This document shows, piece after piece, positions 17,201 through 61,200 of a stretch of DNA of 64,000 nt (positions within the stretch are counted from its first letter, which is position 1; every line of letters starts with the position of its first letter). The position numbers were made by a program, and so were the translations under genes. The notes beneath the pieces are model-generated. The model was not told the DNA's origin. It did no database searches and saw only the letters and a list, made by a program, of their open reading frames with translations. The DNA is from Neelides folsomi (Eukaryota; Arthropoda; Collembola; Neelipleona; Neelidae): contig JAQGBZ010000085.1 of NCBI GenBank assembly GCA_034687125.1, positions 62,001 to 126,000 of the forward strand, read 5' to 3'.

Positions 17201-20200
17201 TACAATATTAATCTGAACTTGCGATCAGTGGAAGTGAAGCTTCATTCAAAGAAGTTTTTTGAAGAAATTTATAACCGAATTTGCACAGATATCCTTCTGT
17301 GGGAACCGTCGGCTCCATCCAACGTTGCTTCTATGGTCAATAACGATAAAATGTTCCAAGGATGTCAAGGGCCTATGAAGTCTTTTATGCTCTGCAAGTC
17401 TGGGATTAAAATCGATTCCGATGAAGAGTCTGATGATGATAATAAGCCATTTTACAACCCCGCAGCACCAGGTGAATCAAGAAACACAATTAAGAGAAAA
17501 TCAAATAAAGGTCAAAGTGACCTTACCTTGGCTCTTACGATCACAAGAGGAAATTGCTTGTTCAACACGCCCTTTTACGACAAAGATAAAAACATACAAG
17601 AAGAGAAGTCTGGGCAATTTGTTCTTAAAGTTGAAGATGCAAAACTATTCGTTGTGTCTGGATTTAAAGGAGATTCGAATCTTGGATATTTGTGCCTTAC
17701 GAGTCATAAAGCTGCCTTTTTCCATTGTGGTGAGCAATTTTAATTCATATTAAATAAATATATGGTAGATATAATTAATTAACCTAAAAATTAATTTTGT
17801 TTATTACAGGGGAAATGGATGAAAGTGAGAGCAGAGATTGTATTTGGGGTTCTCCTAGACTTCTTCGGACTGTTTACCCGAGCGAGGAAGGCGTTAACAC
17901 AAAGGGCACTTGGGACCTGAGTACTGATACTTATGTAGATATGCTCTCTGTGGCTGTGAAGATTGATCGTGAGAGAGATGATCTCGGGATTGGGCTAAAG
18001 AACATCCGAGTTGCTGTTGGGATCAAAGACGGGTCTTTGGATTATCGAATGTCGTATCAAAATACTTTCTGGTTCACCCAACTTACCGACTTTTTCGATG
18101 TGAATGAAACTCCGATCAAAGGTTACACTCCGTACAAAATAGTGACCGAGTTGCAACTGCACCTATGGAATTGTGCCATTATCTACAAACCCTTGTACCT
18201 TCCGCATGCCTTCATCCTCTCTATTGACAATTTTACCCTTTCGAGTAACATTGTCGCCCAGACTGAAACACTGATATTGAAATTCTTGGCCGAAGAAGCG
18301 GCTCTTTTTGTCTCACAAAACAAAAATTCAATTGATATTCGGAACGACTACGTTTGTATCATTGAATTGGACCTGATTGAACTTTCTCTTCGATTCTGTG
18401 ATGATAAGCGAAGTGAAGCTCCGAGGTTTGAATTGATCCTCTCAAATAATGTGGTAAATGTCCGAACTTGTCGAGATTCATTTGAATCTCTTAAAGACAT
18501 CATTGTACATTTAGCCAATGAAGGAGATCTTGTTGATCGAAAGAAAACCATCCTTCCAGACGGAATTGAAATCCCATCTTCTGCTTCAGGCTCAAATGAG
18601 CAATTAGTCTCATCACAAATATCAGAATCACAGAAAAATCACATTAACGACATGGTCGAGGAAGCAATGAAAGAGTCCAAGACTCAATTTTGTGGACAAT
18701 CTCCACCTTCGAAAGAACGACAAAGTCGAAGCAAGCAAAATCTCGAGCTTCATTTTGAACCTGAAGAAATTAATTTTTCACACAAAACCATTCCAGTTGA
18801 GGATTTGAACCCACCGTCGTACAATCCAAACCCAAGGTTTTATGGCGATCCTATTATGGAAACATCGAGCCCTTTTGGCATTGATATCCAGCCGAGCGAC
18901 GACGAGGAAGATTTTTGCATTCTTGAAAATGACCCTGGTGTTGGAATCGTTCCAAAAGACGGAGAGCCAGAAGCCAAAATTCTCGTCAATGAACCAATCG
19001 TCCTCGTTGAGAATCATTTCTCGGTGCCAATAGGGAAAATGGATATTTTGCGAGCTCCTAAACACTATCCAAAGCCATTAGTGAAATACTCTATCCAGGA
19101 CATGACATTAATTTGGCATATTTACGGCGGAGAAGATTTTAGCACCACGCCAAAGGCGTCAAACGGCCCGTTAGAATCCGAGTCAAAAGAGTCGCTCAGA
19201 GATTATTACAATACTTATGACCAGAGTGATGTTGACATTGGGATTGACGCTCTTAACACAGGGGTCATTTTCTCAAAAAACAAATGTTTTGAGAGTGCTT
19301 GGGAAGCTTATGAGGGGCCGAAGAGAGAAACGAAACTTCCCAATGAGGAAAATTGGAGAAAAAAAGGAGGAAAAGGACGTCAACATGATCGCCTTGTTGA
19401 GATACAATTGAGTAAAATTAAACTCCAACATGAATTGTATCCTGAAACGACGGAGCAAGCATCGAGACAAGTCATGGTCATTAACACCATTGAAATTAGA
19501 GATCGGTTGAGATGTTCGCAATTTAACAAAATGCTTTACTTGTACACATCTCCCTCCAAGCCGAGACAATCGCATGCCAATATGATCCTTGTGAAAGCTG
19601 CTCACATTCGACCTGATCCTCAATTGAAGTTTGAAGAATGTTGTCTCAAAGTTTCTCTATTGCCCATTCGGTTGAATGTTGATCAAGATGCTCTGCTTTT
19701 CCTCTTCCATTTCTTCAGTGATATTACATCCAAAGGAGATAGCGATGATGATGAATCGTTGGGGAATCCAAAACCGCCGAGTGCCACGCCGTCAGTTGAG
19801 TCATTACCAGTCTTAACTCTTAATATCACGGATGATCTTCCTGTTGAAAACTTGGAAGATAATCATTCTCAAGAAGATACTGTTTCCATTTCTTCTCGGG
19901 CACCTTCAATTGATTCTGGTCGAACATCTCCGCCTGTATTCTTCAGGTACCTTTTATATTAATTTATTTAAATTTCTCCATTCCACTTTTCCGCTCCATT
20001 CTATTAATATTAATATTAAAATATTTGTATCATATTCATCTATAGCTTAAAATTAATTTTTAATATTATTCATAGGCAAGTCATATTTTCACCCGATGTT
20101 CCAATTCGACTTGACTATAGAGGAAAAAGTGTTGATTTAACATTTGGACCTCTAAATGGAATTTTGATGGGACTGGGACAATTGGATCGCTCTGAAATTC

Positions 20201-21986: not shown

Positions 21987-22206
21987 TTAAATGGGAGGGG
22001 GCCCTTGAGGATAATGTAACATTGGTTCAAGGGATCGAGCGAAGTTGTTTGCGGCGGAACAAGCAAAGTCTTCTTCTCGAGAAGGAATGAGGGCTGCGGC
22101 ACCGAGGAGAAGAATGATCAGTGCTTGAATCGGAAGAGACGTTCGAAGGACGCGGTAAAAGTAACGTCCGCCTCTGACCAAAATTCCTCTTCTTCCTTCA
22201 TGTTCA
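21987..22206 (-). other. SYNE1: KASH domain exon: transmembrane helix and SUN-binding tail
   Basis: Last exon, 73 codons plus TAA (21987-21989). Basic [13 protein letters not shown] is followed by the membrane span [18 protein letters not shown]. The luminal tail contains [16 protein letters not shown] and the C-terminal GPPPI. The Cys at -23 from the end, which forms a disulfide with SUN proteins, is present. The terminal PPPx that inserts into the SUN pocket is present, ending in Ile where vertebrate nesprin-1/2 have Leu or Thr. It joins the preceding exon (22774-22829) in phase 2. Confidence 0.96.
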
Positions 22207-37200: not shown

Positions 37201-40200
37201 TCTTTGATTTGTTTCCTTGAGGGGATTCATGAGATGAATCGGCGACAGACGGAGGAGCTTCACGTTCGATTTCTTTAATAGAAATTTTTTCTAATGCTTC
37301 TTCCGATTTTTCTTTAGATGGGATATTGGATTTCTTATCCGAATCTATTTCATCTTTCATTACATCGCGCATTTTTTCCACTGAACGGCCTTTTTCTTCA
37401 TAAATAGGCATTGATTTTTCCGAGACGAATGTCGGGCTCTCGACCCGTGTTTCCTCGTCTCCCTTAATTGATTCTTCTGGTTTCAAACTTTGCTCGACGG
37501 ATAAGGTTTCTTTAATTTTCTTATTTATCTTTTCTCCACCTTTTTCCATATGACTTTTAATATCTGGTTCATTGACATGTTTCTCGGGAGTTTTATTCTT
37601 TTCTTCTATAGATGGAATTTCAATGGAATCCTTAAGCTTACTCTCATTTCCCTTTGCTCTTTTCTTTGATTTCTTTTTCCCTGGTTTTGCAAGTGAAATG
37701 CTTTCAACAGTTTCTTCGTTAGGTTTATATATTTCACAAGAAGGCTCTTTCTCGATTGGAATATTTCCCTCTAATTTAAATTCAGTATAACTTTCCTCCT
37801 GGGGCATATCAGCTTTACTTGATTGAATTTGTTCGGGTAAATTAGACTTCGAACCTTTTGGAGCCTCGTCTTGAGGAATAATTGAAGCAGAAGTTTGTGG
37901 GTGTTCTTTTGCTGTTACATTTTCATTGTCTGAGTCTGGAAGTTCTGTAATTGTAACTCCAAGTGTGTCAACTATATCGGATTTTCGTGAATCGGAATCG
38001 CTAGAAATGTTAATTAGAGGGCCACTTGAAAATTCAGATGTTTGTTCATCGATTTCATCAGGTTCTTCTATGATCTCTTCATTCACCGTTTCAACTCCAT
38101 TGATGATCATGATTTTCCTCACGATCCTCCTTCGCTTTCTTATGACTCTCCTTGTCACATGTTGTGTGATTTGCCTCACCCTCACCGTTACATTTATATT
38201 GTTTGCATCTGGGGTCTCGCCTTGGGAAACATTTTGTAGCAAAGTCTCCGTAGCTGCACGGGAACTGCTAATCAGATTTTCTATACTTGGCTCATTGATC
38301 CTCTGCATTTCACTCGAAACGATTCTGAGCTCTGGAGATCCTTGGGGTTGTGACGTGAGTTCAGATGAGTTTTCTATATAAATCGGAACCGTTATTTCAT
38401 TCCTTTCCACTCTTTCTCCAATTTGTGGTTCTGATTGTGGGGAAATATCCGTGCCAGATGTGAAAGATCTAATCATAGAAACTTCCTTCTTCTGGCTCAT
38501 TGAAACACTTGTGGAGACATTTGACAAATAACGACCCGTCGAATCCTCATGAATTTCTCCCACAACCTCTTTGGGTAGAATTGAGAAGTTGGAAACTTCA
38601 ACTGATTTGAATATCGAAATGCTCTTTCCACCTTTACTTTCTCCATCGATTGAGGAGGAAAGTTGTGGGGGAATGGAGGTTTGTAAGCTCTCGTCCAAAA
38701 TGTTCGCGGCTGGAATGGTTTCTTCCACACTTGTTGATTTCTCTTTACCTTCCTCATCATGCAGGACGGGAATAGAAGTTGGTTCATCTTTCACTACAAG
38801 AATGTTTTCTTCTTCGCTCTCCAACTTTCGAAGGTTCTCCTATTACAAAAAGAGACATATTATGTAAACATATAAATTGAGGAAGTGAAAACTATACTTG
38901 AGGGTATATATTCATTACTATATATTTAGAATTTAAACGTAGGCGTACCATTGCATTGCTCCGGAAGTTTCCGCTTTGTGATTTCAGCGACTTGATTTTC
39001 CCAAGGATATCCTTCAGATCAGCCGAGATGGCATGAACCTCATTGTCGCTCCCAGGGAGTCCCTCAAGAATTCCATTCAATGCCATTCCATTCTGCTCAA
39101 GGCCCTCCAATGCATCAATAATGTTCTAAAGTCAAAATTCAAAATGAGTTCAGATGCTCGAAAAGATGCTGAGTGAGATGAGGAACGAATGTAACATCTT
39201 TATTCGCTACTATTTAAGTGTGAGTATTGGGTCTTTTTACAAGTTTTCTTTTTTTTCTCATTTAATTCTTACTCTACGTCTGTGTCTAACCTCGGTTTGT
39301 CGAACTACTTTCACGGCTTCTTCTCCATCCATTTCTTTTAATTGGACAGAAATGGCTTCAGCCGATTTTCCTAGTTCCTCCACGTCTCCCTTCGAAGAAT
39401 CCTATTAAAACATGTTAAGATTATTTTAGAGCCCTCCATAGCATGCAAGCTTCAACATTCATGACGTTAATTATTACTCAAGACAAATGATACCAAACTT
39501 TGACTTTTGTTAATTAAATTGTAACATTTAAGACGGATGTTATACGAGTTAACTCGTCGACAAAACTGCATACCATGACAAAATCTTATTACTAATTAAA
39601 GGTGGAGAGGTCGGGTAATAAAAATAGGTATGATGAATAAATAAATGCTGTGGTATGCGCGTACTATAATGAAATATAGTACTACATAATTAGTTTCAAT
39701 ATAAAAATAACAAAGCACATTTCATTATTGCATCTTTATTAGTAAAAAAACGAGGGTGAATGTCTAAATGATGAATGGGTTAGGCTTAAATATGATATAT
39801 TTACATGTACTTATCACATACAATTAAGTATTATTAATATTTGTGCACAAGTGTTAAAAAGCCCATGTTTATAAACTACGTTATAAATCTACAATAATAG
39901 CCTATTCTAATAGGTAATTAAGTTGGTGGTTGAAAGGAATTTGGATAGTAGTTATTGTAAACAAAAGGAGACAATAGGCGAAACCCATTGCAAACGCCGA
40001 GAGATGAATTAAAGTTAACCTTTATTTTTTTCAAACAAATATCTTTCTTCTCATCGCCAGCTAAAGCGAGGAGCGGTTTGGATTCCTCTTTTCCTTCATC
40101 TTGAATTGAAGGCTTCTTTTGGATATTTGTTAATTGGATTTGAGATTGGTCAGGGGGTTCTGAACTGAGATAAGTGCTCCAGTCAATCCAATTGGTAATT

Positions 40201-43200
40201 GGGCTTGATAAGAGAAGCTCAGTCACGCCAGATCGACTGCCTCCAGCCTTTCCGCTTCCACCTCCATCATTTTTGGGATCTGGGTCTTTTTTCTTTTTGT
40301 TTATATCTCCTGAACCAGGAGGTGGATGCGGCGGTTGTTTTCCTGGCACCTTCTTGGCCTCCTTTTCCTTCGGCTTCTTCTCACTCTCACTCTCTTGCCA
40401 TCTAAGCTCGGCTTCGTGAAAATGGGGCATTTGGATCAAAAAGTAATCTGTCTCCATCAAAACCACATTCTCGTCCTTCTCCAATTTTTCTTCTGGTTTC
40501 TCTGATTTTTCTGTTTTCAAAAGTTGGGGGACTTTTTTCTGCTCAATGACATGCTTAATGGAAGGCTCTTCATTAGCTTGGGATTCATGTAAATTTTCCT
40601 CGATGTTCATCTCCTTTCTTTCATCTCCACTTGGAAGCTCATTATAATTAGACTCTAATTTTACATTCGGGTGACTCGGAGTTCCCAAGTTATTAGTTTC
40701 TCCAGAATCAAACTTTCCCCTTTCATCTATGGATGATTCAATTTCCTTCTCCAAAGTGTCTCCGCCTTCGGGCAATAGATGTTTTTCTCTTTCATGGGAA
40801 GTCACATTCGGATTGTTGGCCGTCAATGCGGTTGTAGTGAGAGTTAGGGCTTGAGGAGAAACTTGGGTTTCTGTTTGAATCTCACAAACTTGGTTCGTTT
40901 TAACTTTGTCCTCTTGATTAATATTGTCACAATGATCTTCATCATCCGAAAAAGTCATCTCAAAGTCTGCTCCTTCCATCATTTCAAACCAGGCATCGTC
41001 AACTTCACTCGACCAGAGTTTCATTTCTGGTTTCTCTACAGTTTCAACCTTTTTAATTTCCTCGCTCTTACTGTCGCCTGTTTCTTTCACTTCTCCTTGC
41101 AATTCTTTAGATGAAACTTCTAAAGGTTTGTCAAGACCTTTTACGTTAATTTCAAGAACTCCTTTGTCTTTTGGTATTTCACTTATTACATTATGACTCG
41201 TCTCTTCAACATCACACTTTTTCCCTTCTTCAATTAATTCCATTGGCATTAAATTTTTATTCTCGGCATTTTCAATAAATTTCTCTTTATTGGAGGAAAC
41301 ATCTTGAATATTCACTTCCTCCTCAACTTTTCCTATTACCACTTTCGATTCTTCTAAAATTTGGTCTGGAGTTTCCCTTTTCAAAGTAATGTCATTGGAT
41401 GGGAGTTGAGCTAAAGTGCTTTCCTCAACTTTCCTCTTTTCCGAATCTTCAACTTCGATCTTCAACTCAAATATTTCAACTTTATTATCGTCTAACACCC
41501 CAATGCTTGAATTTATTGTTTTATTTCCTTCTTCTATGAGCCTAATCCGTGTTTCCTTGTTGGGATTAATATCACGTTGAGGAGAACTTGGCTCTTGAGC
41601 AATTTGAGCTTTGACTGGTGGGATGATTTTAGTAAATTGATCTTTATTCCATCCCTTATTTTTGGGAACGAACTCGGGAGCTTCCACATTCCACTCCTCC
41701 TTGAACTCTACTTCTACTTTACGATCCTCTGACGATGAAATATTAGGAGTTTTCTTCAATGGAACTTCGGCTCTTCCGACATTGTGATCTTTCGTGTCCT
41801 TCTTTTTCCCTTTATGCTTCCGCTTCCCTCCTGAGACCAAAGGAGGCTCAGGGAGAAAAAGACCAGGGATCGTGGGGTGCATGGAAATGACTCGGGTTGG
41901 AGGTTCGCTTTCATGTTCAGTGGATAATGAATCCGTGAATTGTTCAAGAGGCTGAGATGATCCAGACTCCTGTTCTTCCTTCTCTTCAGAAATCCCTTTC
42001 GATAACACTGATGCATAGGACAGAACACTCGGACCTGGTTTAGATCCGCCATCACTAATAATTGAACTAATTTTATTTAAGTCCTCTTCATTTTCCCCTT
42101 TGGAACAAGTCATTGGGTCGTCATTGATTGTGGACAAAGAAGACTCCTCAGGAGCTAAATTTCGTTCTGGATTTGGTTCTTGAAAAATCTTCTCCTCTAA
42201 TGATTTCTCTTCCAATTGGGGATTAATATCCTTTCCAATTACTGGGATAGGATCATTGTATGGAGTAATTTGATGAGAGATTTCTCGAGGTTCATTTTCC
42301 TCTTCGTCGTCGTCTGGGAGAACCAGGGATTCGTCTCCCATGAGAGTCATCCAGGAATCGTCAGTTGGCAGTTGGAAACTTTTACATTCACCAGCTCTTT
42401 TACTTTCAATACTTTCTTCTTTTGAAAGAAGAGGTAAGATTTCATTCGGCTGCTCATCCTTCGCACTCTCATGAGGAGTATTTGTAATTTGAGAAGTAGG
42501 CTCAGGTAGATTTTTATTCTCCTCGGCCTCTTCATCCTTTCCCTTGAGAAGTAGAGAGGATGGAATTGTTGTCGTGGTTCTTTCCTCGCTAATTCGGTCC
42601 TCCGTCTCCATTTCCATGTAAGGGATTTCTTCCTCGAAGGCCTGAACTTCCGTAATTTCAAACGATGCTTGAACCCTTGTTTGAGAAATCCTCTGCTCCT
42701 GCTCTCTTTTTGGGGCTTCAATGTAATTATGATAATTGGATTCCGCCTCGTTGAATTGTAATATTTGAGATGAGAGAGGGAAGGGCAATTCCTCCGCGTC
42801 CAAATTTCCACATTTCAAACTTTTTAATAATCCAATTTCTTCTTTGTGGGATTTTTCTTCTTGATACTCCTTCACGTCAGAGCTTTTAGCTTCACTTTCG
42901 CTTTTCCCTTTCCCCTGAAAACTGGCCCAATTCTCTTCGGCTACAGAATAAAGCAGCAGATTCGCAGAATCATCATTTATAAAATAAATCTCTTTGGGTT
43001 CTTCAGGAAGGGGGACAATGGGGATTATCGAGCCAACAGGTTTATTGGGCCCACCTTCCCCCTTCTGCTCCGGCAAGGATTGATCAAAATTCTCGTTTCT
43101 TTCCTTTCTCCCCATCTCATAAATTTCTCCTTTCACTCCGATATTTCCGGATGAAATTTCTGAATCAAGCTCACTTTCTTTTCCTACTTCAGTAGAAGGT

Positions 43201-46200
43201 TCATTTAATGGAAGATTTTCTCTTGAACGTTCTTCTTCTTCTTTAATAATGGGAGACTTGGGTGGGTTCTCATTGAGAAGCTCATTCACGCTCTCTTTAA
43301 TTATTTCATCAACGGCCATTGCAATGTCTTCATTTAATTGAAAGGACGTTGGGGGGATTTCATCATTTCTCTTTTCTTGGGCGAATGGAGCAGATTCAAT
43401 TTTTTCTTCGCATTTGACTATCACATTTTCATCACGAATTTCATCTTCATCATCAGATAAAACAAGAGTCGTTTCATTCATCAAATCCATCCAAGAATCA
43501 TCTGTGTTGTATTCTCTTTTATTCTCAACTGCCACTATTGGAATTGTATTGCTGTCACACTTCACTTCCACTTCTGTAATGATCGTGGGCTCGTCGTCGT
43601 CTTCGGGAAATGAAATGTTGTCATCTTCCAAGATATTCATCCAGGAATCAGACAGAGAATCCAATTGAAGTGAAAGTTTTGGCACTTCTTTCGCCTCAGG
43701 TACGATTACTACGTCTTGGCTTTTATCAGCCGTCGCTAATAAATTGTCACAACTTGGAGGATCAACTTGATCCTTTCCATCCAACAAACATATATTATTT
43801 AATTTCTCTTCTTTTTCCTCCTTTTCTCCCAAATTGCTTTTCTCCTCAACTTTCTCAACGCTTTTAAATTCAGGCAGGGTTTGAGCTATTTGAGCATTAT
43901 TCTCACCACAAACAGGTATTGATTCTTCCAATTTAATTTGAACCTGATCTTCAATACAAGGTAATGGTTCCTCCATTACTTCCATGTCTCCCACTACTAA
44001 TTGGATTTCTGTTCCAATGCCATCAATTTTCTGTTCAGGTAACTGATTGCAAGGGTTAGATGGTGGAGGACAGGGAGAAAAATCCAATTTTTCATCCTTC
44101 TCAACTTCCCTTTTAATTTTCCTTTTAGCTCTCACTTTCTTCCTTGTGGATTCTTCCTTGGGCGGTTGCGGCGTCGGTGGAACAAGCAACGGGGTGGCTT
44201 CCTTAACTAATAAATCTCTGTTTTCTTCCGCAACTCTCTTGGTAGGTGAGTGGGGTTTCTCCTTAGCTTCATTTCCTTCCTCTTTCACTTTTTTCTTCTT
44301 TTTCTTTGAAGGGCCGCTTTTCTGCTTTGAGTCTGATTTTGGCTCTGATTCAATTGGCGTATCAAGGCATGTAGAGGAATCAATTATTTCCTCTCCACCT
44401 GCGTTGTCTTTAACGATTGGAGCAGTAATTGAGGATTGAAGTTCAAGGTTTGGAGGATTGAATGGTTCTGGCTCCTTAGCCGATTTGCTCCGACGCGTCT
44501 TGGATTCAATTATTTCCTCTTTCTTCTCCGCTTTATTTTCATTATCTTTTTTAGACTTGGATTTGTGACTTCTCCTTGGACTTCTTCTTCCTTCTTCGCC
44601 AGGAATAGGAAGGACGAGACCGGGAATTGTCGGATGTTGAAAGACTTGACTTTTACTGCTACTTTCCACTGTTTCAATATTTTCCCTTGGTTTGGGAAAT
44701 GCCGTTTCTGACAACTCCAATTCAATCTCAGCCGCAACGATTTTTGGTATTTCTTTAATATCTTCAATATGGCTAGGCAATTGAATGCCAGTTGTGAGAA
44801 TAGTAGCGTATGATTTACTACTTGTTTGTTCAATATTTGGACTTATTTCTGCAATTCCAACTTCCACTTGAGAATGGCTTGCAGATGGATCGAATTCTCC
44901 CATCTCTTTGAATATGTCCTCTTTATCGTTTCCACCACGCTCATTCTCAGACACTCCAAATTCTTGTGCTTGAATTCCTTCACATTGCTCTTCTAAAAAG
45001 AGTTCAGGTGACTCTTCGTCAGTCTGTATTTGTTTGTCTTGAACCTCTACGTTTGACTTTTCTTCCTCGGCCTCCTCATTCATTCCCTCTTTTTTCACAT
45101 GAGAATCTTCAGGTTGAAATGGCAAGCTGTCTATACTTTGTCCAAGTAACTCCGATTCACTCGTGGATCCCAACGAGGGAGATTTTCTTCCGAAAAATAC
45201 CTCAGCATAAGAATTTGGACTATTCCTTGCTGAATCAACTACGACGCTAACATTAGGAATGGGGACAGCAGAGTTCGGACGAGGCGGTAAAAGGATTTTA
45301 GAGTCGAGATTAGAATCAGATGAGGCCGCCGTTCGCTTTTCCGGACGTGGAGATGCACTCGCCGGTCTCATCGTACTTCTTTGCTCACTCCGGGACATCA
45401 TTCCTTTCTTCTGATCTTTCAATGATCTTCCTTCTTTCCCTTTGGGTTCCCTCTGTTCTCTGGGATGACTTCGCGGGGGTTTATGTTCAAAGTGTTTGAG
45501 TTCGGGCGGTCGCGTCGATGATCTTGGAGGAGGAGGAAGAAGTGGAAGAGCGACTTGTTGCTCTGGAATAGACGTCCCTGATGGCGTGGGTGATGGGGGA
45601 AGCGGCGGAAGTGGACTTGAGCGACCAAATGCAATGTCCGCGTACGAGGAACCCGCAGAGGAACAACGTGGTTCGGACGGGGAGGGCTGAAGCCCCAGAT
45701 TGAACTCCATTGTGATTGTGATTGAGATGTGGGGATCAATTTGTTTGAGGGCTTGGACGAGCTGCGAGATTCTGACGATCTTCGATTCCCTCTCCTTCTT
45801 GAGGGCCTAGTAGACAGAGGGGGGAATTGGAGACCTGACCACTCATTAACTTCAACGTGTTTCCAACAGACAAGTACAGTTGGTCGCGACGACGACTATA
45901 GCAATTCTACACGGAGCGAAGCGGGTGGGTCGTCGTTGGAGGAATGTGGTCAGAGTGTGTGGAGGGGAGCCGAGGCGTCAGAGAGGAGAAGTAGCTTAAT
46001 GCGTTCGTTTCGTGCCGTGATCTTGGACTGAATCACTCTGAGCCTCTCCTTCACAGCCTGGCCTCGACAGAGGAAGAGGAAAGCCGAAATTAGAAGCCTC
46101 CTCTCGCCAAAAGCACCCAGCCCCGGCCAATAATACGTGGCCCACATATACCATAATATACTACTAGATACATAGCTAAAGCCCGCAAAATCTCCTTCTG

Positions 46201-49200: not shown

Positions 49201-52200
49201 GCCTTGTGCATCGTTGAGAATTGATTGTAAAGTTGCTTTTGTTTCTTGGAGCTGCTGATGAGATCTAATTGATGGGTCAATTTGGGAAAATTGTTCGTCG
49301 AGGCGAGAGAGGCCGGATTCAAAAGTTTGCCAAAGAATTTCACATTGCTAAATAATATTGATTTGTGATTAAATGTGTATTTTATACTGTTAATGAGGAT
49401 TTTAGAGAAGATTAACTAAATAAAATACTATCTCTATTTGTAAATTATGTTTAGTAAAGAATATAAAGAATTTTGGCAATTACCTCCCATTGAGCCACAA
49501 GTCTTAAAATTGCATTTTTCTTGCTATCCAAGTTAGCCATAGAACTTTTCCACTTGTCATTGACATTCGATAAGTGCATTTGAATCTTTTGGCAACTTTC
49601 CAAATTCGCCTCCCTTTGAACACTCATGGCACGTTCGTTGAGGTTATCTATTTCCACTTGATGATTCTAAATTGAGATTTAATCATATTTAAAATTTAAT
49701 CCGATCCATTTAAATTTAAAAGCAATTTATGATACTAATTAAGGTTTATAATAGACAAAAGTTTTGGTGAATTTTTATGCGATACTTTTAATACTTTTAA
49801 TTAATCTTAATCTTTTAATAACCAAAGAACCATTTACCTGTAGAACTCCTATAGCAGTATTAACATGGGCCAAATTGTTTTTAAGAGCAATTAACGAAGT
49901 TGAAGGGGTATCCGGTAAGTCGGCCCTTGCGATTCCTTCTTGAGCAACTCTCATGAGATCCAAATAGTTTTTCCATAGTGTGGCATTTTTCTCTAGTTTA
50001 GCTTTGAGACTTTTCGAACTATTAAACGTATTTTGTACTAACTCGTTCAAATCTTCTTGGTCCTTGCTTAATCTTTCCTGCTTTCCAACTTCTACACTTG
50101 GCCAAATCTTGTCAACAACATGCCGAACATTTTGCAATTGTTGAATTACATTCTTCTCATTGCCGAAATAGGACTTTAAATAAAAATATTAAAATTAAAG
50201 AATTATCCCATTTTCAAAAAAACGATAAACTCCCACAATTCCCACATGTACAAACAAAATATTTGAACAAAAATCGTTGTTATTTATTCGTTTGAAATAG
50301 TGAATCAATATCAATGTTTACCTTGTGGTCTGCCAAGTCGTTTAGAATCGTATCAAAATCAATTCCGGCTTCTTTCGCTTTCAATTTCCCTTGAGCTTCT
50401 TTCAGCCATTTCATAATATTCTCAACAGCTTTGTTGTGTTCTTCTCGTAACTTTTTATTCTCGATTAAATATTTCTCACGGGCTGCTAGTGCTTGGGGGA
50501 AAGTTTTGAGAAGAAGTTTTGCTTCGTTAAGAAGATCGTTCAATGATGGCAGAAGTCCATCTTCATTTTGAAGCGCCTCTTCAATTGCCGTCAATGTTTG
50601 AAGCCTTTCACCAACCTCGCGGGCCAGATCTTCTTGTTTTCTTATTTCAATATCCACACTTGAAGGGGGAATATCAAGCAGTGGAAGTGATTTGATAGTT
50701 GCTTCTTTATCATTGAGCCATGCAATCGTTGGATCCAATTCATCTGCGTATTTTTTATGGTCAAGTGCACATTGCTCATATTCGGACTTCTTATTCTCAA
50801 CAGCTCGTCTGAGTGATTGTAGTTGGTGCTTAAGAGATTGAAGTTGTTCGGTTATTGAATTCCTATCAGCAATTGTTCCTTCTTCTGCAATTCGAGCTCC
50901 TTTGTCTGCTGCCGTAGCTAATTGAGCTTCACATTCCTGAATCTTGATTATCACCTTAAAATTGATAAAATTACAAAAGTTAAACATTTTTTAAATTGGA
51001 ATGCATAAGTATACAATATTTAATAAATTTTCTCAGTTAAATGAAATGTAAATATAAAAATATTAATACTTCGTTGTATCGCTTAATCTTCTCTTCTACA
51101 GTCGATCCAGACTTTTCAATTTCTTTTACGACTTCAGTATACTTCGTAATAAATGTTGTGATTTCTGTAACAAGAGCCAAAAAGTGCTGCTGAAGCAAAA
51201 GAAGATGTCTCAGCTTTGTGATTTGAGACTCAATTAAAGCAATTAAATCATCTTGGTCCTTCAATACTGCCCTTAGATCATTGGAATTTCTATACACTTG
51301 CATTGGAGCAGAGTCCAAATTTCTTCTGTATCCTTTCAGGTCATCCAGAAGTTTCTAGAAAGAAAAATATTATTTTTAAATCCATAAATGGGAATAAAAA
51401 TTTTAAGGTGGCAATAGTGCACCAAAATATTATGAGAGCTACAATGTGTAAATGAATTACCTCATATGAAGCTAATGTTCCTTGAGATTCCCCAATTTTG
51501 CTACCAACTGGACGGTTAAGATTATTAAGCTCAGATTTGACCTCTTCTAGATATTTCACACTTCGTTCAACAATGTTTGAAATTTGCTTAAACTCGTCAA
51601 TAGCTGACTGGATATTAGATAATTTATCTCCAATGTTAACTGAAAGAGTTCCAAGCTTTGTGGACAATCCTGAAAGTTCGTCTGTAAGAATTTGTCGGTC
51701 AGGTTCATTTAATGAAACGATCATTTCCTTTCCTTTGTCAATCAAAGATTCGATTTCTTTTGTCATAGTTTGTGATTCTTGTTGCAATTTTTTGTACTTT
51801 AAGAAAATAAAGGACACAAGAATAGTTTATGTTGCCATCAAGTTTTAATAGTTAAATGTTAAATTATAAAATCGCTTTTTATATAAAATATGCCATACCT
51901 TGGTAAATTGTTCTTTGAGAGTATCAAGATTTGTAGAACCTTTGATATCAGAACTAATGGAAGCCTCAACTTCACCCAACCAGCTTTTGCATTTCTTAGA
52001 CTCGGTTTCAAATTCTCTTCTTTGTTTCAATATGTGTTGGTATTTGCGATTAATTCCTTCTAGTTGTTTCTTAAGATTTATTATCTTTTCCTTCAAGCCT
52101 AAATTATAATTTAAACAAAAAATTAAATTTGTATCTAAAATGACTGTGAGACTTTGCTAAATTAAGTGTTATTTAACTTATTTACCAGTGATTAATTGGC

Positions 52201-55200
52201 GAAGCTTCTTAATTTGTATTTCATCGCACTCTTTTTCAAATCCAGCAGCATCACTCAGTACCAAAGTAAATGGTCCTTCAAAAAACTCGCATATTTCTGT
52301 CTCCAATTTCTAAAATATTAAATCATTTTTATAATTATAATTTATACTAGATTACTTTAAAATGGTATTTAAGATTTTATTTTGGACTTGTTTACATTTG
52401 AAAATTACATAATAATGCCCATAATTAATTTACAAATAAATAATAACAAAGAAACAAAACATTATTTTGAAATCAAAAGCTACATAGATCCTTCGTTCAA
52501 ATTACAATGTTTAAATTATTAATACCTTAAGATTGGCAAGTTTCCTTTCAACGTCATATGATGCCAATGGAGCGGTGTGTGAGTCGACAATTTCATTGTT
52601 CATTCGATTAACCCAAGATTTTACGGACTCAACATTGTCGTTGAACTTTCTTCTTGAAACGAGAGCTTCATTTAAGAACAATAAATGTTTCTTTAATTTA
52701 GAGCAAAAAGATCCATGTTGAGTGAGAGTTGCCGCAAGTTGAGTTTCAGCTTCAGTGATTTCACTTTCTTCCAGTTCGGGTCGAAGGGCTCCAAGTCGAT
52801 GGTCGAGTGTTTCCAATATTGCTTGCTTACTCTCTGCCTCTTTCAAGCTCACCTTAACTGCATTCTGAATAGCTTCAATTGGAGGAATCTCAAATCCAAT
52901 TTTAGTTGAGACTGTGAGGTTAGACGGTTCTTTAAAATATTCTTTACAGGCATTCAAATTATTCTTAAAGTCATCAAAGCTCTTTTTAGCAACTTCGAGA
53001 ATTTGCTCCTTTCTCTCAATTCGTTTCTTCAATTCTCCAAACCGGCGGTCCAAACTTTTGATTTGATCTTCAACCATTTGGGCATCGACATTACTTAATT
53101 CATTCATCACATGAGTTCCACATGCTTTGACTTCTGCTAAATTCTTCATGTTATTATCAAACTCATTAAACATGTCCTTAAGGTAAGAAATTTTTTCGTG
53201 AGAGGAAATTCCGCCTCCCTTTTCTAATGGATCCATTTTCCCAGATAGTTGATCTAAAGAATTTTGTGTTTTTGTCACCAGACCACGATATTCCGTCACT
53301 TTAGATTGGACTTCCATTCGAAGGTTAATAACGTCTCCCACTTCTCTTTCAAGAATGCTCAGCTCTTCTTCAAGGTTTGGAAGATATTTAATGTTTACAA
53401 GGCCACTTTCTTGAATCTCAATTTCTTGTAATTGAATAGATTTTTCTCCACATCCCTTAAAATTTACAAATAATAACATTCTTAATGACTTAGGTAAGCA
53501 CCACTACTTAGTAATGATAATGATATAAAAGTTCTGAATAAATAAATACATTATATGTTATTTATAGCGTACCGTTCGGATATCTTGGAGTTGATTGAGT
53601 TCAACCTGAGCTGAATCCATTCTCAATTTTGCTTTTCTGTTTCTTATATCTTTCAATGCATTTCTTGAATCATCAACCCATTTCTTAATTGCATCTTTTC
53701 CAGAACAAATCTCTTCTAGTTCCAAAGTAGCAGAAGAAAGCTCCGTCATGTGAGTTTGAATCTAATGGTTAAAGTTAAAATTATTGTTTAATATGTTTAG
53801 TTTCATGAAACTGATAGGCTTTAAAACAAAATGTTAGTTAAAATAATTGTTGATTTTCTGAATTGACAATTCAGTACATAAGAATCAATCTAGATACTAA
53901 AGCATATCTATTTTAGAATTGCAAACTACGCTACACTACTTGAAACGTGACAGCATGACATGGCACACTGAAGAAATCTAATTAGTTTAAGCTTCAGCAA
54001 TATTTTCAACTTCTCAACGCTAACCTTTGAACATAAATATTCAATTCTTTCATTAATAACATTGCATCTTGAACTATCGGTGACAATTTGTATTCTGGCT
54101 TCCTTCGTTTCTTCGTTAAATGCTTCTTTAACACGTAATGGCTTATATCGTGCAAAAATAAAATAAGTTTAGAAAAACAAAAAAAAACGTTAAATCATAA
54201 TTTTCACATCAAATAACACATCAAACAAAAATAATTCATGAAATCCCATCAGACAATTGTACCTGGTCAATAAGATCTTCCAGACGGCTTCTGACTGCAA
54301 TCTCTTTGTCTGGAATTGGCTGCAACATTGCTTCCTGTGGACTTGTTGGTCTTGATAGTGACGCAGTTGCGGCTTCACAAGCTTGAACTGCTAGAGAAAG
54401 TCTATTCTTTTCCCCTTGAATTTTATTGTGAACTCTCTGGAAATTAACAGCATTTTAAAATAAATCCAATAAATAAAGTTAAGTAAATAATTTATTTAAT
54501 GAAGAATACTTACTCTGAAATAGTCGAGCATCTTGCCAGAAGCTTCAATGTTATCAATTGGACTCTCGAGATGTTCTTTTATTTCCGGCTCTAATTGATT
54601 TAAATAAACCGTTATGCTCTCTAATGTATCTTCGTAATCTTGGAACTTGGCCAGGGACTCGATGAGCCTTTTCTTAATTTGAATTCCGGTGTGAAGGAGA
54701 GAGTCGTAACTCTCTTGAACATTTTTCAACTGTTTTTCGATTGTTGTTTCAATAGAAGGAATTGTCGTCTTGTAGCGCTCCACTTGGCCTCTCCCTTTAC
54801 CATTCACAGTTTCAAGAACCGATTGATATTCCTCGATTTCCTCAAGAAGCTGCTTGTGAACTTCCATCTGTTCAAGAGTTTGCTCCCGATTGGTGATGTA
54901 GAGAGAATTGTGAGCCATGAGTTGGAAGGATGTCTGAAGGAGCCATTTTTCAGTATCTTGAAGTGCCGAATGATAATCGGTGTAATCTTTAATCTCATCA
55001 TCCATTTGACTCAAGATGGCTTCTACAGATTCTTTCAATTGTCTCCATTTCTTCACAAGTTTGCTGCAAGATTCGGCAGTTTTTGAACTATTGGCCCACT
55101 TAGAAAGCTCTGATGACTCAAGTTGTAAACGGTCGAGTTCTTCCTTTTCGGTTAATATTTCATTTTGAAGAATCTAAAATGATAGTTTAAAAGTCAGGTA

Positions 55201-58200
55201 TAAATATTTATTTCATCTATAAGTATTTTAAAACTTAATTAAATAAAATATTAAATGTTTACCTTGTATCGTTCATAAAGGGTTTTCATATCACCGAGCT
55301 CTCCTCTTGTGATAGGCGTCTCACTTAATTTCTCTTCTTTTGTCTTACACCAATCAGAGAAACGATTGTAATTTTCTTTGAAATCTTCCCACCTCTGGAG
55401 TGCCTCCTAAAATTAATTAATCAACGTGAAATGAATCTACCTAACATAATAGCGTTATAAAAACTGTTATTGAATTTACCTTTAATTTTGTAATCGACTT
55501 CTTGAGATCCATATTGAACTTTTCCCATCTGCTTCTCAAAACCAATACAGCCTCTCTCATTGAATCTTGATCTTCAGATGGTACCATGTTCAACACTCTT
55601 GTAAACGAATCTTGGAGTAGAGAGAGCAAATGTTGACCTTCGGTCAATCGTTTGGAAACAATCTAAAAGAAAATTTCAAATTGTTATACATTTAGCCCGT
55701 TAAATGATGATTCAAAGTATTAAATTAAGTTAATTTTTACATTAATTGTGTCGAGCTTTTCTTTAATTGCAGTTTCATCCCCGTAGCCTTCACAATCTTG
55801 AACTGTTCCTTCGGCTATTTTGAGCCATTCTTCGAGATCTTTCTTTGATTTTAAGAATTCAGTATGATCCGATAAATTCTTTTGAATCTTCGAAAGAAGC
55901 CCCTAAAATATAAATATGTTAATGAAATCATTTCTTAAGATTTTAAAGAAGAAAATAAGAATATAAAATTACAATCTAAAAAATTCATACCTGGCCAGAA
56001 GTAAGCAGTGCAGTAAATCTCGATTGCATTTTTATTGTTATGTCTCTAACTTGTGGAGATCCACTGTATTCCATGAGGGTCTCGCATTTATCATTAAGAT
56101 CTTCTAAAGGCATCTTGTGAGAAGTGATTTCTGCCATTAGTTTCTAAATTTGTAAGCATTAATTTTATTCTTATAAAACTTATAATGAAGATTGAAATTA
56201 TCGTAAGCATTAATAACAAACGTACTTTGCATCTTTCTAAATCATCAATTGCTTTGTCAGAGTCTGGCTCATCATGAAACTTTTGCTCGGTTTCAGTCAA
56301 TAAGTTTTCAATGTGTTGGTAGCACTTTTCAAAATCGTCCCATGCAACCAAACATTTTTGTAAATTCTTCTGGCTTTCATTGGAGAGTGCAAGGACACTG
56401 TCATAGTCGAATTGAAGTTGATGAGACTCTTGAGCAATTGCGTCTTCTCCTTCAGAAGACAAATTCTCCAAAAGCTTTCTTCCAAGTTCTTTCACTTCTT
56501 TTACTTGCTCTTCAGCTAAAATAAAAAGATTTGAATTACAAAATAACCATGTATAGAGTAATATGGTAGTATTACTCTAGTAGTAATATTTTAAATTATT
56601 AGATTTAAAATGTCAAGCTTTAATTTAGTAGTACCCTTTTGAAGAGACGTATTAAAGTTACGAAGCTCTTTCATCTTTTTCTCAACAAGATCCTTTTCTC
56701 CGTGTGGATCTGTAAAGAGTTGAAGTTCCAAACGAATCTTCCTTAAAAATTCTGACGTTTCACTGAAACGCTCCCAATATTTTTCATGCTCTTGTGCGAT
56801 TGATTCCAATTCCGAAATGTTATTTGCCAATGAACTCTTAAGATCTGAATAGGTTTGGAATGTGGGATTAAAAGCATCCCTTGGCATATCAGGTAATTCT
56901 GCCAATTTTGACTCAAGCTTTGAAAACATCTCTCCTTGAGCAACAAGTTCCTTTTCAATTCCTCGAAGTTTCTCAAGCGTCGCTCGCTTTTCACCCAAAT
57001 CCGCATATCCACCGTTCTCGTTGCTCTCTCTCATTTTTGAAGCTGTTTCTCCAAGAAGGTCGATAAGGACTTTGTGACCCTTTTCTAAATCTTCAAGTTG
57101 TGAGGCTCTCGTTGACAATTTCTGCCGCATATCTTGAACATCAGTAAGAATTTTTTCAAATTCATGTTTAAGGGCTTCGGTATCTTCATTAATTTTCCCT
57201 GCACCACTAGGTTCAGATGTTAACATGACCTTTTCTTTAAGTTCTAAAACGTAACGAAGTTTGTTCTGTCCTTGTTCAAGGGTTTGTTTAAGACCTTTAA
57301 CGGCTTGAAGACGATTGTTAACATCGCTCAGATTATAAGAAACGTCAGAGAGTTGCGAGAGCTTTTCCCTTGTACGGTCAATCCAATCCTGACATTCTCC
57401 AAATAGAGAATTGTGTTGCTGATGCTCTTGGTATTGAAGTTCAAGACGACGAATGACTTCCTTTGCAAGAGAAAGCAAAGCGTTGAATTTGGTCGTGAGT
57501 TGTGTAACAGAGTTGGAAATTCGCGAATCGGCACATGTTTCAAGAAGGATTTGAGCTTTTAGGTTAAGCCGATCCAATTCTTTTTGCCAATCAAAAATCG
57601 TTTGAAGCTGAGCTTGAAATTCCTCCAGTGCAGTTTTCTTTTCCATTAAAGAATTCTGAAGCTGATGAAAAGATTTTACTTCTTTTTCTTTGTTGTTGAT
57701 CCATTCTTCTGCTTCACCGTGTTGATCTTCCCATTCTTTCCACCTTACTAGACCCACTTCCAGCAATTGTTGTGTTTTAGCCATGAACTCCCTAAATAAA
57801 GAAATCAATATTTAATGACATTGATTTAATTGGTTACATGTTTAACAAAAACGGAAAAAATGAATTAAAAAACAAAAATGTTAAAATTGACCAAAAGTCA
57901 TTGACAGAGATCAGAGAAAGTTTAGAAAACGATCACGACTTTTTCTCGTATTGGTAAATGGCGCCACTATTTAGTCGCTTTCTAGTCCTAATTACGTATT
58001 CAGTAAAATAATTCAAATGGCTTACAAATAATTGTCAAATTCTTCCTGGAGAACAGCGACTTCCTCTTCAATCAGTTCTTGATCATCGTGGTCGACGATC
58101 CCACAAGCGTCGCTGCCTTTGGAAAGAGCTGCGTCGAGTTTCTTTTGTCCAACGTCAACTTCAGACTGAAGCACTTTAAGTTGGGAGATCTTGCTGGACA

Positions 58201-61200
58201 AATTGTCTTTGTCTCCAACCGGTTCAGATATTTTTCCAAGTTTCTCTTTTGCAACTCTCATCCACGCCATGAACTCATTAGCCAAGTCAACAAATGCCTG
58301 TGTAAAGATTGAATTATAAATTCAGGTGAGCAATTTTTAATGATTTAACAGACTCCGTGAATATGCATTATGTAAAATTACATTACATAATAAATAAAGT
58401 TATATTTCATATTTAATTAAAATAACTCAACTACATACCTGATGTTGTTCAACCATCTCCTTTTGTCTTGCATACATCTCTTGGGCCTGTTTGGTCAGAC
58501 TTTGGTATTTAGTAGATATTTCAGAAGCTGGTGCTTCTTGCATTAAATTCTCAGCTTTAGAAGTAACAGATTCAATCATTGGCTCAAGAGAAACGATGTC
58601 TTGAACAATGGTATTTGTCGCTCTTAGGGTAGCTTTTCTTTCCCCAATGGAGAGTGAACTCATTCCAGGAGTTGGATGTGATTTCTTGGACCGAGAAACT
58701 TTTTGCTCTTTCACTTTTTGAAGCTTGGCTTCCCGATCGGAAATCCATTGTTGAACTTGAGAATAAGAAGAATTGTAATCGGCCCATTGTAGTAGGCTTG
58801 TCTCAAGAGACACTTTCGCATTCACCATCTTCTTCACGAGCCTTTCCCATTCGGAGCCAATTTCCTTCATTTGTTCATTGATTGTATCTCGGCCATCTGA
58901 ACGGGTATTTCGGAGAGTTTTTTCACCAGAGCTTACTGTAGCGTGCACAAGCGATTGACCTTCCTCTTGTCGTTGGACCAAATCCTTTATTACATAATGA
59001 TATATTATAGTATAGTATAACTTATATTGGTTAACGTTATTGTTCGTTATCATGTTTTTTAAAATTTGAATTATTATACCTGAATTTTATTCAAATTGGC
59101 TTGTAATCTTTCTTTCTTCGAGTCATTAGAATCAAAGCTCTCCCTTATAATTTCTCGGGCATTTTCAATCCACGTTCGAGTTTTTGCCAAATTATTAAGA
59201 AAACCTTGATGGTGTTCCAAATTAGCTTCTACTTTTTTAAGCACATCTTTGCCCATATTTAGTTGCACCTAAATATTATATTTTTGTTAATTTAATCAAT
59301 CTTATCATGTATTTGACAGATATATTTGTACATATTATGAATAAAGTAAATCAAAGACATTACTTGATATTTTGAATTGATGGTTCTCAATTGATTTCCA
59401 ACATAAGTGTCAAGATGTGAATTCAGAAGATCGGTTGCAGACTTGTTGAAATTGTCCATTTGACCTTTTCCTTTTTCTAATTTCTCAAGAACTTCATGCA
59501 TGTCAGCAACCTGCCTTTCTTTTTCTTGGACAGTTCCAGCAAGTGTGGTCTTAGCTGCCTTAATCAGAATTTCGCATTGTTGAAGCCAGTCAGAGAGCCT
59601 TTCGTATTCTTCTTTCCATTCTCTCAGTTTTACCATTGTGACTTCTAGCTGATCTTTTTGCTTTTGAATACTGTCAAAGAGACCTTCGAAGCTCTCATTT
59701 AATGCCCTTATTTCTGCTTTAATTGTGTCTTTCCCAGTTGGCGATGTGCTGGCCATAGCGACTTCTCCCGATTGTTGGAGACGTTCAACGAGTAAACTAC
59801 CCTGAGCTTTTTTATTCATTAATGCCGTATAAGTGCCAGAAGCAGATTCAACATCAAAGAGCCTATCTCCTAGAGATCGCTGCTTGAACGTTGGGATCTT
59901 CTCTCTTGCCCGGTTGAGCCAATTCATAAGTTCGTCATGAGCCTCTTTGAAAGCCTTGTGATCTTTAAATTGCTCTTCTCGCTGATGCCTCAATTCTCTG
60001 ATTTGACTCGAAAACATGTCAAACTTCTTGAGAATCTCTTGGGCTTGAGCTGCAGCTTGACTTTGTTGCCCGCTAGCCATCATCTCTTTTGCTTTGCTCT
60101 TCAGGCTTTCAACTTCTATCTTTTCACAGACAAGCTTTTCTTCCAAACTCTAAAAATTAATTGAAAAGTACGAGTATTATAAATTTCATAATCAATCAGA
60201 TAGATGTCTGGGAATTTCATAGCATAAATAAAATTATGACAAAGGGAATTTTGTCTTTAGATTTAATACCCTTGATTCATTTAAACTTACTCTTATAGTT
60301 TCTAATTGAGCTCTCTTTTCTTGCATTGTTGTTTGGAAAGGAGTTACGTCGGACATAACACTTTCTAGATACTCAACAGTTTTGTTTAGTTGATGTATTT
60401 GTTCGAGGAAACCTGCCCATCGGGAAATGCTTTCATCCAAGTAATTCTTTGTTTCAACCATTTTGGCCGCAAGACTACTCCATTCTTCTTGCAACTTCTT
60501 GACACTTTCATTAATTTCGCTGTGACCTGATGAAGCCGTATTGGCTAAAATGGCTTGTGCTAATTCGACAACTCTCTGTACTTTTCCATACCCATCTTCT
60601 TTGAACAGTAGCAAATCCTAATAATTTTAATGAGATATTATTTATCGATTGCGATCATTATTATATTATGAAAAAAAGATCAATTTTATTTAATTCAATA
60701 AAACTTACATGAACAGTTCCAAGTTTCCCTTCTAAATCTTTCTGAGAAGAAGCACTTAGGTCGGAACAGTAAGTAAGTTTGTATTTAATATCTTCAAGCC
60801 ATCTTGATATTTCTTTGATTTGTGAATCGAATTCCTGATGAGAGCTCACATAGCCTTGCCATTTGGAGACGCAATCTTTGACTCGGTGAGTTAATTGTGT
60901 ATATTTGCTTGTGAGATCACTCACGCTGGTGGAAGTCTTTGAAGTGAGAGATTGGTTTTGAAGATTCAGAGCCCTTTCCGAAATCGAATCAATCTCAAGT
61001 TCTTTCGCTCTCGTTTCTCCTTGTAGTTCCTAAATGATTGTGAATATCTTTTATAAGTATGTGATCGCATTTTATTTATTTAACTATAAATTAAATAACA
61101 ATTTGTTTTGATCCTAAACAAGTACCTTCAGTTCATTTAATTGTTCAATTTTAGAAGAAAGATTCGGCTTTAGGTCAACGGAATGAAGTTTATTGTCGGT

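Follow-up and report, generated by a model that had tools for sequence, protein, structure and literature searches.

One of the closest described systems to the one considered here is the nesprin-1 gene of Drosophila, Msp300. It has alternative stop exons ahead of its KASH end, four stop exons being listed (26, 29, 40 and 41) together with one isoform, B, that has a calponin homology (CH) domain and no KASH domain; KASH-less isoforms have been proposed to act in fly muscle in Z-disc stability and myofibril registration (PMC8616381). In fly muscle, MSP300 knock-down led to aggregates of polyubiquitin that also contained ref(2)P and Atg8a, and the authors conclude from them that autophagosomes fail to mature; removal of the KASH domain gave similar polyubiquitin aggregates; in the accessible part of that report the term LC3-interacting region (LIR) appears once, in a reference title (PMC11213522). 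The p62 LIR docks on LC3B as a strand placed alongside beta2. Counting from the core aromatic residue as 0, many LIRs have an acid at +7, very few have Met at +3, and in some the residues C-terminal of the core matter; the FIP200-interacting region (FIR) has the consensus [DEST][DEST][FWYILV]xx[ILV] (PMC7615515). Here we describe a 64,000-nucleotide stretch of the collembolan Neelides folsomi (positions 62001-126000 of contig JAQGBZ010000085.1, C85 below, from a genome of 75.1 Mb in 840 contigs), hereafter the window, in whose coordinates features are given unless prefixed C85. Its minus strand holds a nesprin-1/Msp300-like gene region with spectrin repeats and a KASH domain, the CH domain lying further 5', outside the window. 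Within this region one long open frame, exon B, carries four copies of a tryptophan motif through which a nesprin tail lacking KASH probably docks onto a partner protein.

Exon B runs from 45806 to 39918 on the minus strand (1962 codons), and all four motif copies lie in its one open frame. Copy 1 is at 43590-43655 (residues 718-739, 22 amino acids, with W722 at 43641-43643), copy 2 at 43440-43505 (residues 768-789, 22 amino acids, W772 at 43491-43493), copy 3 at 42300-42365 (residues 1148-1169, 22 amino acids, W1152 at 42351-42353) and copy 4, the weakest, at 40935-41003 (residues 1602-1624, 23 amino acids, W1606 at 40989-40991), giving spacings of 50, 380 and 454 residues. Their tryptophans are four of the 11 in exon B. 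A six-frame scan of the window with [DE][SAT]W[MFLI] returned 12 matches, and only the four of exon B have the acidic tail, as judged by eye. When the copies are aligned without gaps on W, hydrophobic residues occur in all four at 0, +1, +3, +4, +9 and +11 and in none at +2, +5 to +8 and +12; an acid is present in every copy at +15, +16 and +17, D stands at -2 in every copy, and S stands at -1 in three of them. The resulting consensus is D-[SA]-W-[MF]-x-[ILM]-[LM]-x4-[ILF]-x-[FLM]-x(2-4)-acidic, a repeated unit of about 20 residues, or roughly twice the length of a LIR. An earlier note on this DNA had reported four recurring W-M-x-L peptides in this exon. The recurrence is real, but the shape holds for copies 1-3, which read W-x-x-[LI], and not for copy 4, in which DAWFEM places M at +3 and so leaves no canonical LIR core.

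That copies 1-3 form a repeat exceeding chance by a wide margin is strongly supported. The pattern [DE][SA]W[MF], found four times in exon B, was absent from 19780 of 20000 whole-exon shuffles, occurred once in the other 220 and never occurred twice. Ranking all 22-residue self-matches within exon B puts the pairs formed by copies 1-3 in the first three places, with scores of 79, 64 and 51; the highest score was 58 among 400 window shuffles and 53 among 400 global ones, and even the third-best score was reached in none of the former and one of the latter. When segment length was left free, the top score was 79, and the best scores of 60 shuffles of window 20 averaged 55.8 and did not exceed 74. 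Copy 4 is not significant alone by pairwise score and is counted by its short pattern and hydrophobic spacing.

At the level of DNA the copies have diverged. Copies 2 and 3, the most alike, differ at a proportion of 0.99 of synonymous sites (pS) and 0.26 of nonsynonymous sites (pN), so that synonymous sites are saturated and the protein is kept; the six pairs together span 0.50-0.99 in pS and 0.26-0.50 in pN (one copy-4 residue omitted), rates that are rough, being drawn from short stretches in pairs that share copies. Codons at identical residues differ 20 times, where independent draws on the codon usage of exon B would give 20.0. The likeness therefore lies in the protein and does not reflect a recent copying of DNA. 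The motif has apparently been kept by selection, a reasonable conclusion from copies within one exon, and the argument from recurrence made in the earlier note is thus supported by the shuffles, the self-match scores and the combination of saturated pS with low pN.

The spacing of the hydrophobic residues suits a short amphipathic helix, in that those at 0, +1, +3 and +4 would fall on one helix face. The hydrophobic moment of the copies is 0.15-0.36 at 100 degrees (helix) and 0.10-0.12 at 170 degrees (strand), and hydrophobic residues at both +1 and +4 in all four copies would be expected with a probability of about 1e-5 from composition alone. Given the four-row alignment, AlphaFold predicted that residues 11-19 of copy 1, around the tryptophan, form a helix, with a predicted local distance difference test score (pLDDT) of 71 for the block. 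Given a 90-residue stretch and no alignment, it predicted only two helices, at the tryptophans of copies 1 and 2 (block pLDDT 47 and 53).

Exon B has the layout of a last exon. An acceptor-like polypyrimidine-AG stands immediately before 45806, the in-frame stop codon is at 39918-39920, and the closest poly(A)-signal-like hexamer, AATAAA, lies about 180 bases beyond it at 39735-39740, all on the minus strand. Donor patterns tried over the exon and the next 600 bases matched at one site only, 43057, deep inside the exon, and at none near its end. A KASH-less tail is plausible because exon B has its own stop followed by AATAAA, and by this layout, which supports the proposal of a KASH-less product in the earlier note, exon B is a probable alternative 3'-terminal exon. 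The likeness to isoform B of Msp300 (PMC8616381) is one of layout alone, and any homology between the exons would be putative. Just 5' of exon B, a short helix-like frame of 37 residues at 45950-46062 (minus strand) also ends in a stop and is possibly another alternative end.

The nesprin link of the exon is borne out by KASH, spectrin and CH matches on one strand. The KASH domain is at 21990-22160 (C85:83990-84160, minus strand; E 3.1e-22), its translation ends in PPPI, and we take it as the C-terminal end of the KASH isoforms of this gene. Spectrin-repeat frames lie at 56591-57811 (E 3.7e-15) and 61568-62407 (E 6.5e-08), both above the Pfam cut-off, and weaker ones, under the cut-off, at 50280-50990 and 52511-53503. 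The CH domain is found on the 5' side at C85:137196-137453, on the same strand as KASH. These parts would belong to one nesprin-1/Msp300-like gene, the joining of exons being putative. Between the spectrin frames (50280-62407) and KASH there are two giant open frames: exon B and, nearer to KASH, exon A (38839-32495, minus strand; 2114 amino acids), which has no tryptophan and hence no copy of the motif. Neither matched any family in a Pfam scan at E 0.01, and the composition of exon B is of the disordered-chain type (14.7% E, 10.2% S, 9.5% K and 8.6% P; 20% acidic). A third giant open frame (2466 amino acids) lies outside the window near C85 135455, also on the minus strand, in the 5' half of the same gene region.

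We favour, at somewhat better than even probability, a reading in which the motif is a docking peptide that acts multivalently in a nesprin tail without KASH, with the partner left unnamed. Exon B would replace the KASH end of the nesprin by a long disordered tail, in which all four copies would bind a single folded protein. On binding, the W-M-x-L-M half would fold into a short amphipathic helix, with [ILF]-x-[FLM] and the acidic stretch making a second contact, and the four copies would recruit the partner multivalently to actin-bound nesprin. Of this, we infer the KASH-less transcript, the helix, the single common partner and the multivalency. To our knowledge, few tail partners of KASH-less nesprin isoforms are known, and a repeated docking peptide, seemingly maintained by selection, in a tail confined to such products would be a direct handle, since the partner could be fished with a 20-residue peptide. 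The best named candidate is ATG8 or FIP200, which together hold about a quarter of the probability, well under half; if either were the partner, it would connect nesprin at the molecular level with the autophagy defect seen on Msp300 knock-down.

Several observations count against docking as the explanation. The confidence of the AlphaFold models is low and the folded peptides include no control LIR, and positions +1 and +4 were inspected only after the pattern had been noticed. Copy 4 scores 35-41 against the other copies, within the shuffle range (mean best 43), and the second score at free length, 67 for copies 1 and 3, is one that the 60 shuffles also reach. The case for selection rests on copies of one exon, for which an old duplication followed by slow protein drift is possible. 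No relative of exon B was found in the virus and prokaryote collections searched (one pattern match among virus contigs and 12 among genome contigs, none confirmed), as expected of collections with that content.

Two further repeats accompany the motif in exon B, all on the minus strand. The peptide HPTIPGL-x-LP occurs at 44607-44636 (residues 391-400) and 41850-41879 (residues 1310-1319), a pair with pS 0.89 and pN 0.16 whose 22-residue score of 50 is inside the shuffle range. SYA-x-[IV] occurs in four copies: two of 13 residues, at 45612-45650 and 45177-45215, then SYATIL at 44796-44813 and SYASVL at 42003-42020. The two pairs measured gave pS/pN of 1.04/0.38 and 1.07/0.39, again with saturated synonymous sites. 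Each HPTIPGL-x-LP copy stands after a SYA copy and ahead of a basic run, and the order SYA, HPTIPGL, basic run, W motif appears twice, as if by an old internal duplication. A 16-residue peptide at 41649-41696 matched Pfam PAM2 at E 0.095 and 12.9 bits, below the family cut-off of 20; we take it to resemble the PAM2 motif for poly(A)-binding protein, with W where the consensus has L.

The earlier note had interpreted the four peptides as LIR-like, and a LIR array, with W in hydrophobic pocket 1 (HP1) and L/I at +3 in hydrophobic pocket 2 (HP2) of ATG8, would make the KASH-less nesprin a holder of autophagosomes or an autophagy cargo or receptor. The observation from which it started stands: the LC3/GABARAP core W-x-x-[LI] is present in three copies, with acid or Ser/Thr ahead of a tryptophan that all four share at 0. 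The genome also has ATG8 matches on three contigs, one of which we take, by eye, to be GABARAP-like. On a LIR profile built for this analysis from 27 verified LIRs (PMC5119064), copies 1-3 take ranks 1, 2 and 4 among the hexapeptides of exon B (scores 8.8, 7.9 and 5.7), inside the leave-one-out range of the verified set (0.2-13.9, with seven of the 27 below 5.7). The xLIR expression of iLIR, however, matches none of the copies and nothing elsewhere in exon B, the GABARAP interaction motif (GIM) matches no copy, and copy 4, lacking the L/I/V found at +3 in the others, scores 0.6. The same profile finds hexapeptides at 9.2 and 8.2 in exon A, which has no W motif and yet has four xLIR matches. 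A failure of xLIR is not decisive in itself, as the hexapeptide DSWCLL of NEK9 misses the expression at +1 alone (PMC5119064), and its WCLL is a verified LIR in which GABARAP binding is lost when either W967 or L970 is mutated (PMC8172835). The NEK9 LIR scores 7.7 on the profile and has the same +1 mismatch as the copies of exon B, and because of this shared mismatch binding to ATG8 or FIP200 is still possible. Like NEK9 and the extended LIRs of FYCO1, ankyrin-G/B and FAM134B, the motif lies in a disordered setting, has acidic or Ser residues ahead of W and L/I at +3 in three copies, and is conserved C-terminal of the core. It differs from them in its fixed hydrophobic residues at +1 and +4, which are as constant as +3, in conservation that reaches +17 with an acid at +7 in just two copies, and in a downstream half in which [ILF]-x-[FLM] is followed by P/S/T and acid, with no evident amphipathic helix from +7. 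The helix-like spacing also departs from the strand formed by the p62 LIR. We therefore find the identification as a LIR not supported and consider the array unlikely. MSP300 is tied to autophagy in fly muscle, but loss of KASH alone produces similar aggregates there (PMC11213522); the fly data keep an autophagy role open and suggest that a KASH-less product would not be enough in that animal. A literature search covering part of the matching papers found no LIR in nesprin or Msp300 in titles or abstract openings, which is weak evidence. If the peptides instead bound the Claw domain of FIP200/RB1CC1, they would bring in the complex that starts autophagy, in place of ATG8 or together with it. 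Three copies have the FIR form [DEST][DEST]Wxx[LI], but the consensus is loose enough to match 14 times across exon B, copy 4 and the conserved tail misfit it as they do a LIR, and +1, +4, +9 and +11 lie outside it. We regard this as very improbable.

Three further readings remain to be set out. To one of them we assign a tentative, distinctly less than even probability: the KASH-less tail would be a multivalent platform made up of a motif class without a matched description, together with SYA-x-[IVL], HPTIPGL-x-LP and the PAM2-like site, and would gather a specific partner, and perhaps translation factors as well, along actin. Another would have the copies act as acidic amphipathic activation-type motifs (Phi-x-x-Phi-Phi) that bind a groove of KIX or TFIIH type, as part of a soluble nuclear nesprin product. 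All four copies fit [LIVMFW]xx[LIVM][LIVM], their flanks are acidic and they tend to helix, a putative family resemblance to activation motifs that bind grooves of KIX or TFIIH type. The same loose pattern, however, occurs 19 times in exon B, and nothing pointing to the nucleus was noticed, no search for a nuclear localisation signal having been made; this explanation is improbable. The least credible is that the copies are without function and stem from the compositional bias of a disordered, acid-rich exon or from what is left of an internal duplication. The acidic content of exon B, the weakness of copy 4 and the twofold order of its repeats speak for such an origin, but no shuffle of either kind, among 400 each, reached the observed best score, and copies 2 and 3 have retained their protein sequence despite saturated synonymous sites.

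Other motif classes were compared with the four copies using their generally known expressions. The LEWD of nesprin-2 is a kinesin light chain (KLC) W-acidic motif and, like exon B, places a tryptophan among acids in a nesprin; it requires an acid on both sides of W, however, where exon B has S/A and M/F, and [LMVIFT][DE]W[DE] occurs in none of the copies and nowhere in exon B. The Arp2/3 acidic-W, AP2 WxxF, delta-COP di-Trp and clathrin box expressions each matched no copy, nor did those for nuclear export signals (NES), LxxLL and LD motifs; the PP2A-B56 and SUMO-interacting motifs matched one copy each. When the four copies were scanned against Pfam at E up to 10, the one match was of copy 1 to an acidic family (E 0.36), and a PDB profile search with the copies matched only four sequences of one splicing factor, on the acidic tail (E 1.8).

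Elsewhere in the genome, a DNA pattern covering DDSWM gave 12 matches. Two of these are copies 2 and 3 of exon B (the pattern cannot catch copies 1 and 4), and the other ten lie in frames of at most 93 codons and lack the acidic tail by eye. A genome protein search with copy 3 matched itself and copy 2 only; both searches are too weak to prove the block absent elsewhere. A search for an intradiol dioxygenase, a possible mark of kinship with spider mites, found none. A second KASH domain is present at C133:11301-11450 (minus strand; E 1.1e-5), and our guess is that it belongs to a Klarsicht-like gene. Within the window, the plus strand carries an ATG2 match (Pfam ATG2_CAD, E 2.3e-49) at 17788-19962; this places an autophagy gene some 20 kb away from exon B, and the nearness of the two is probably a coincidence.

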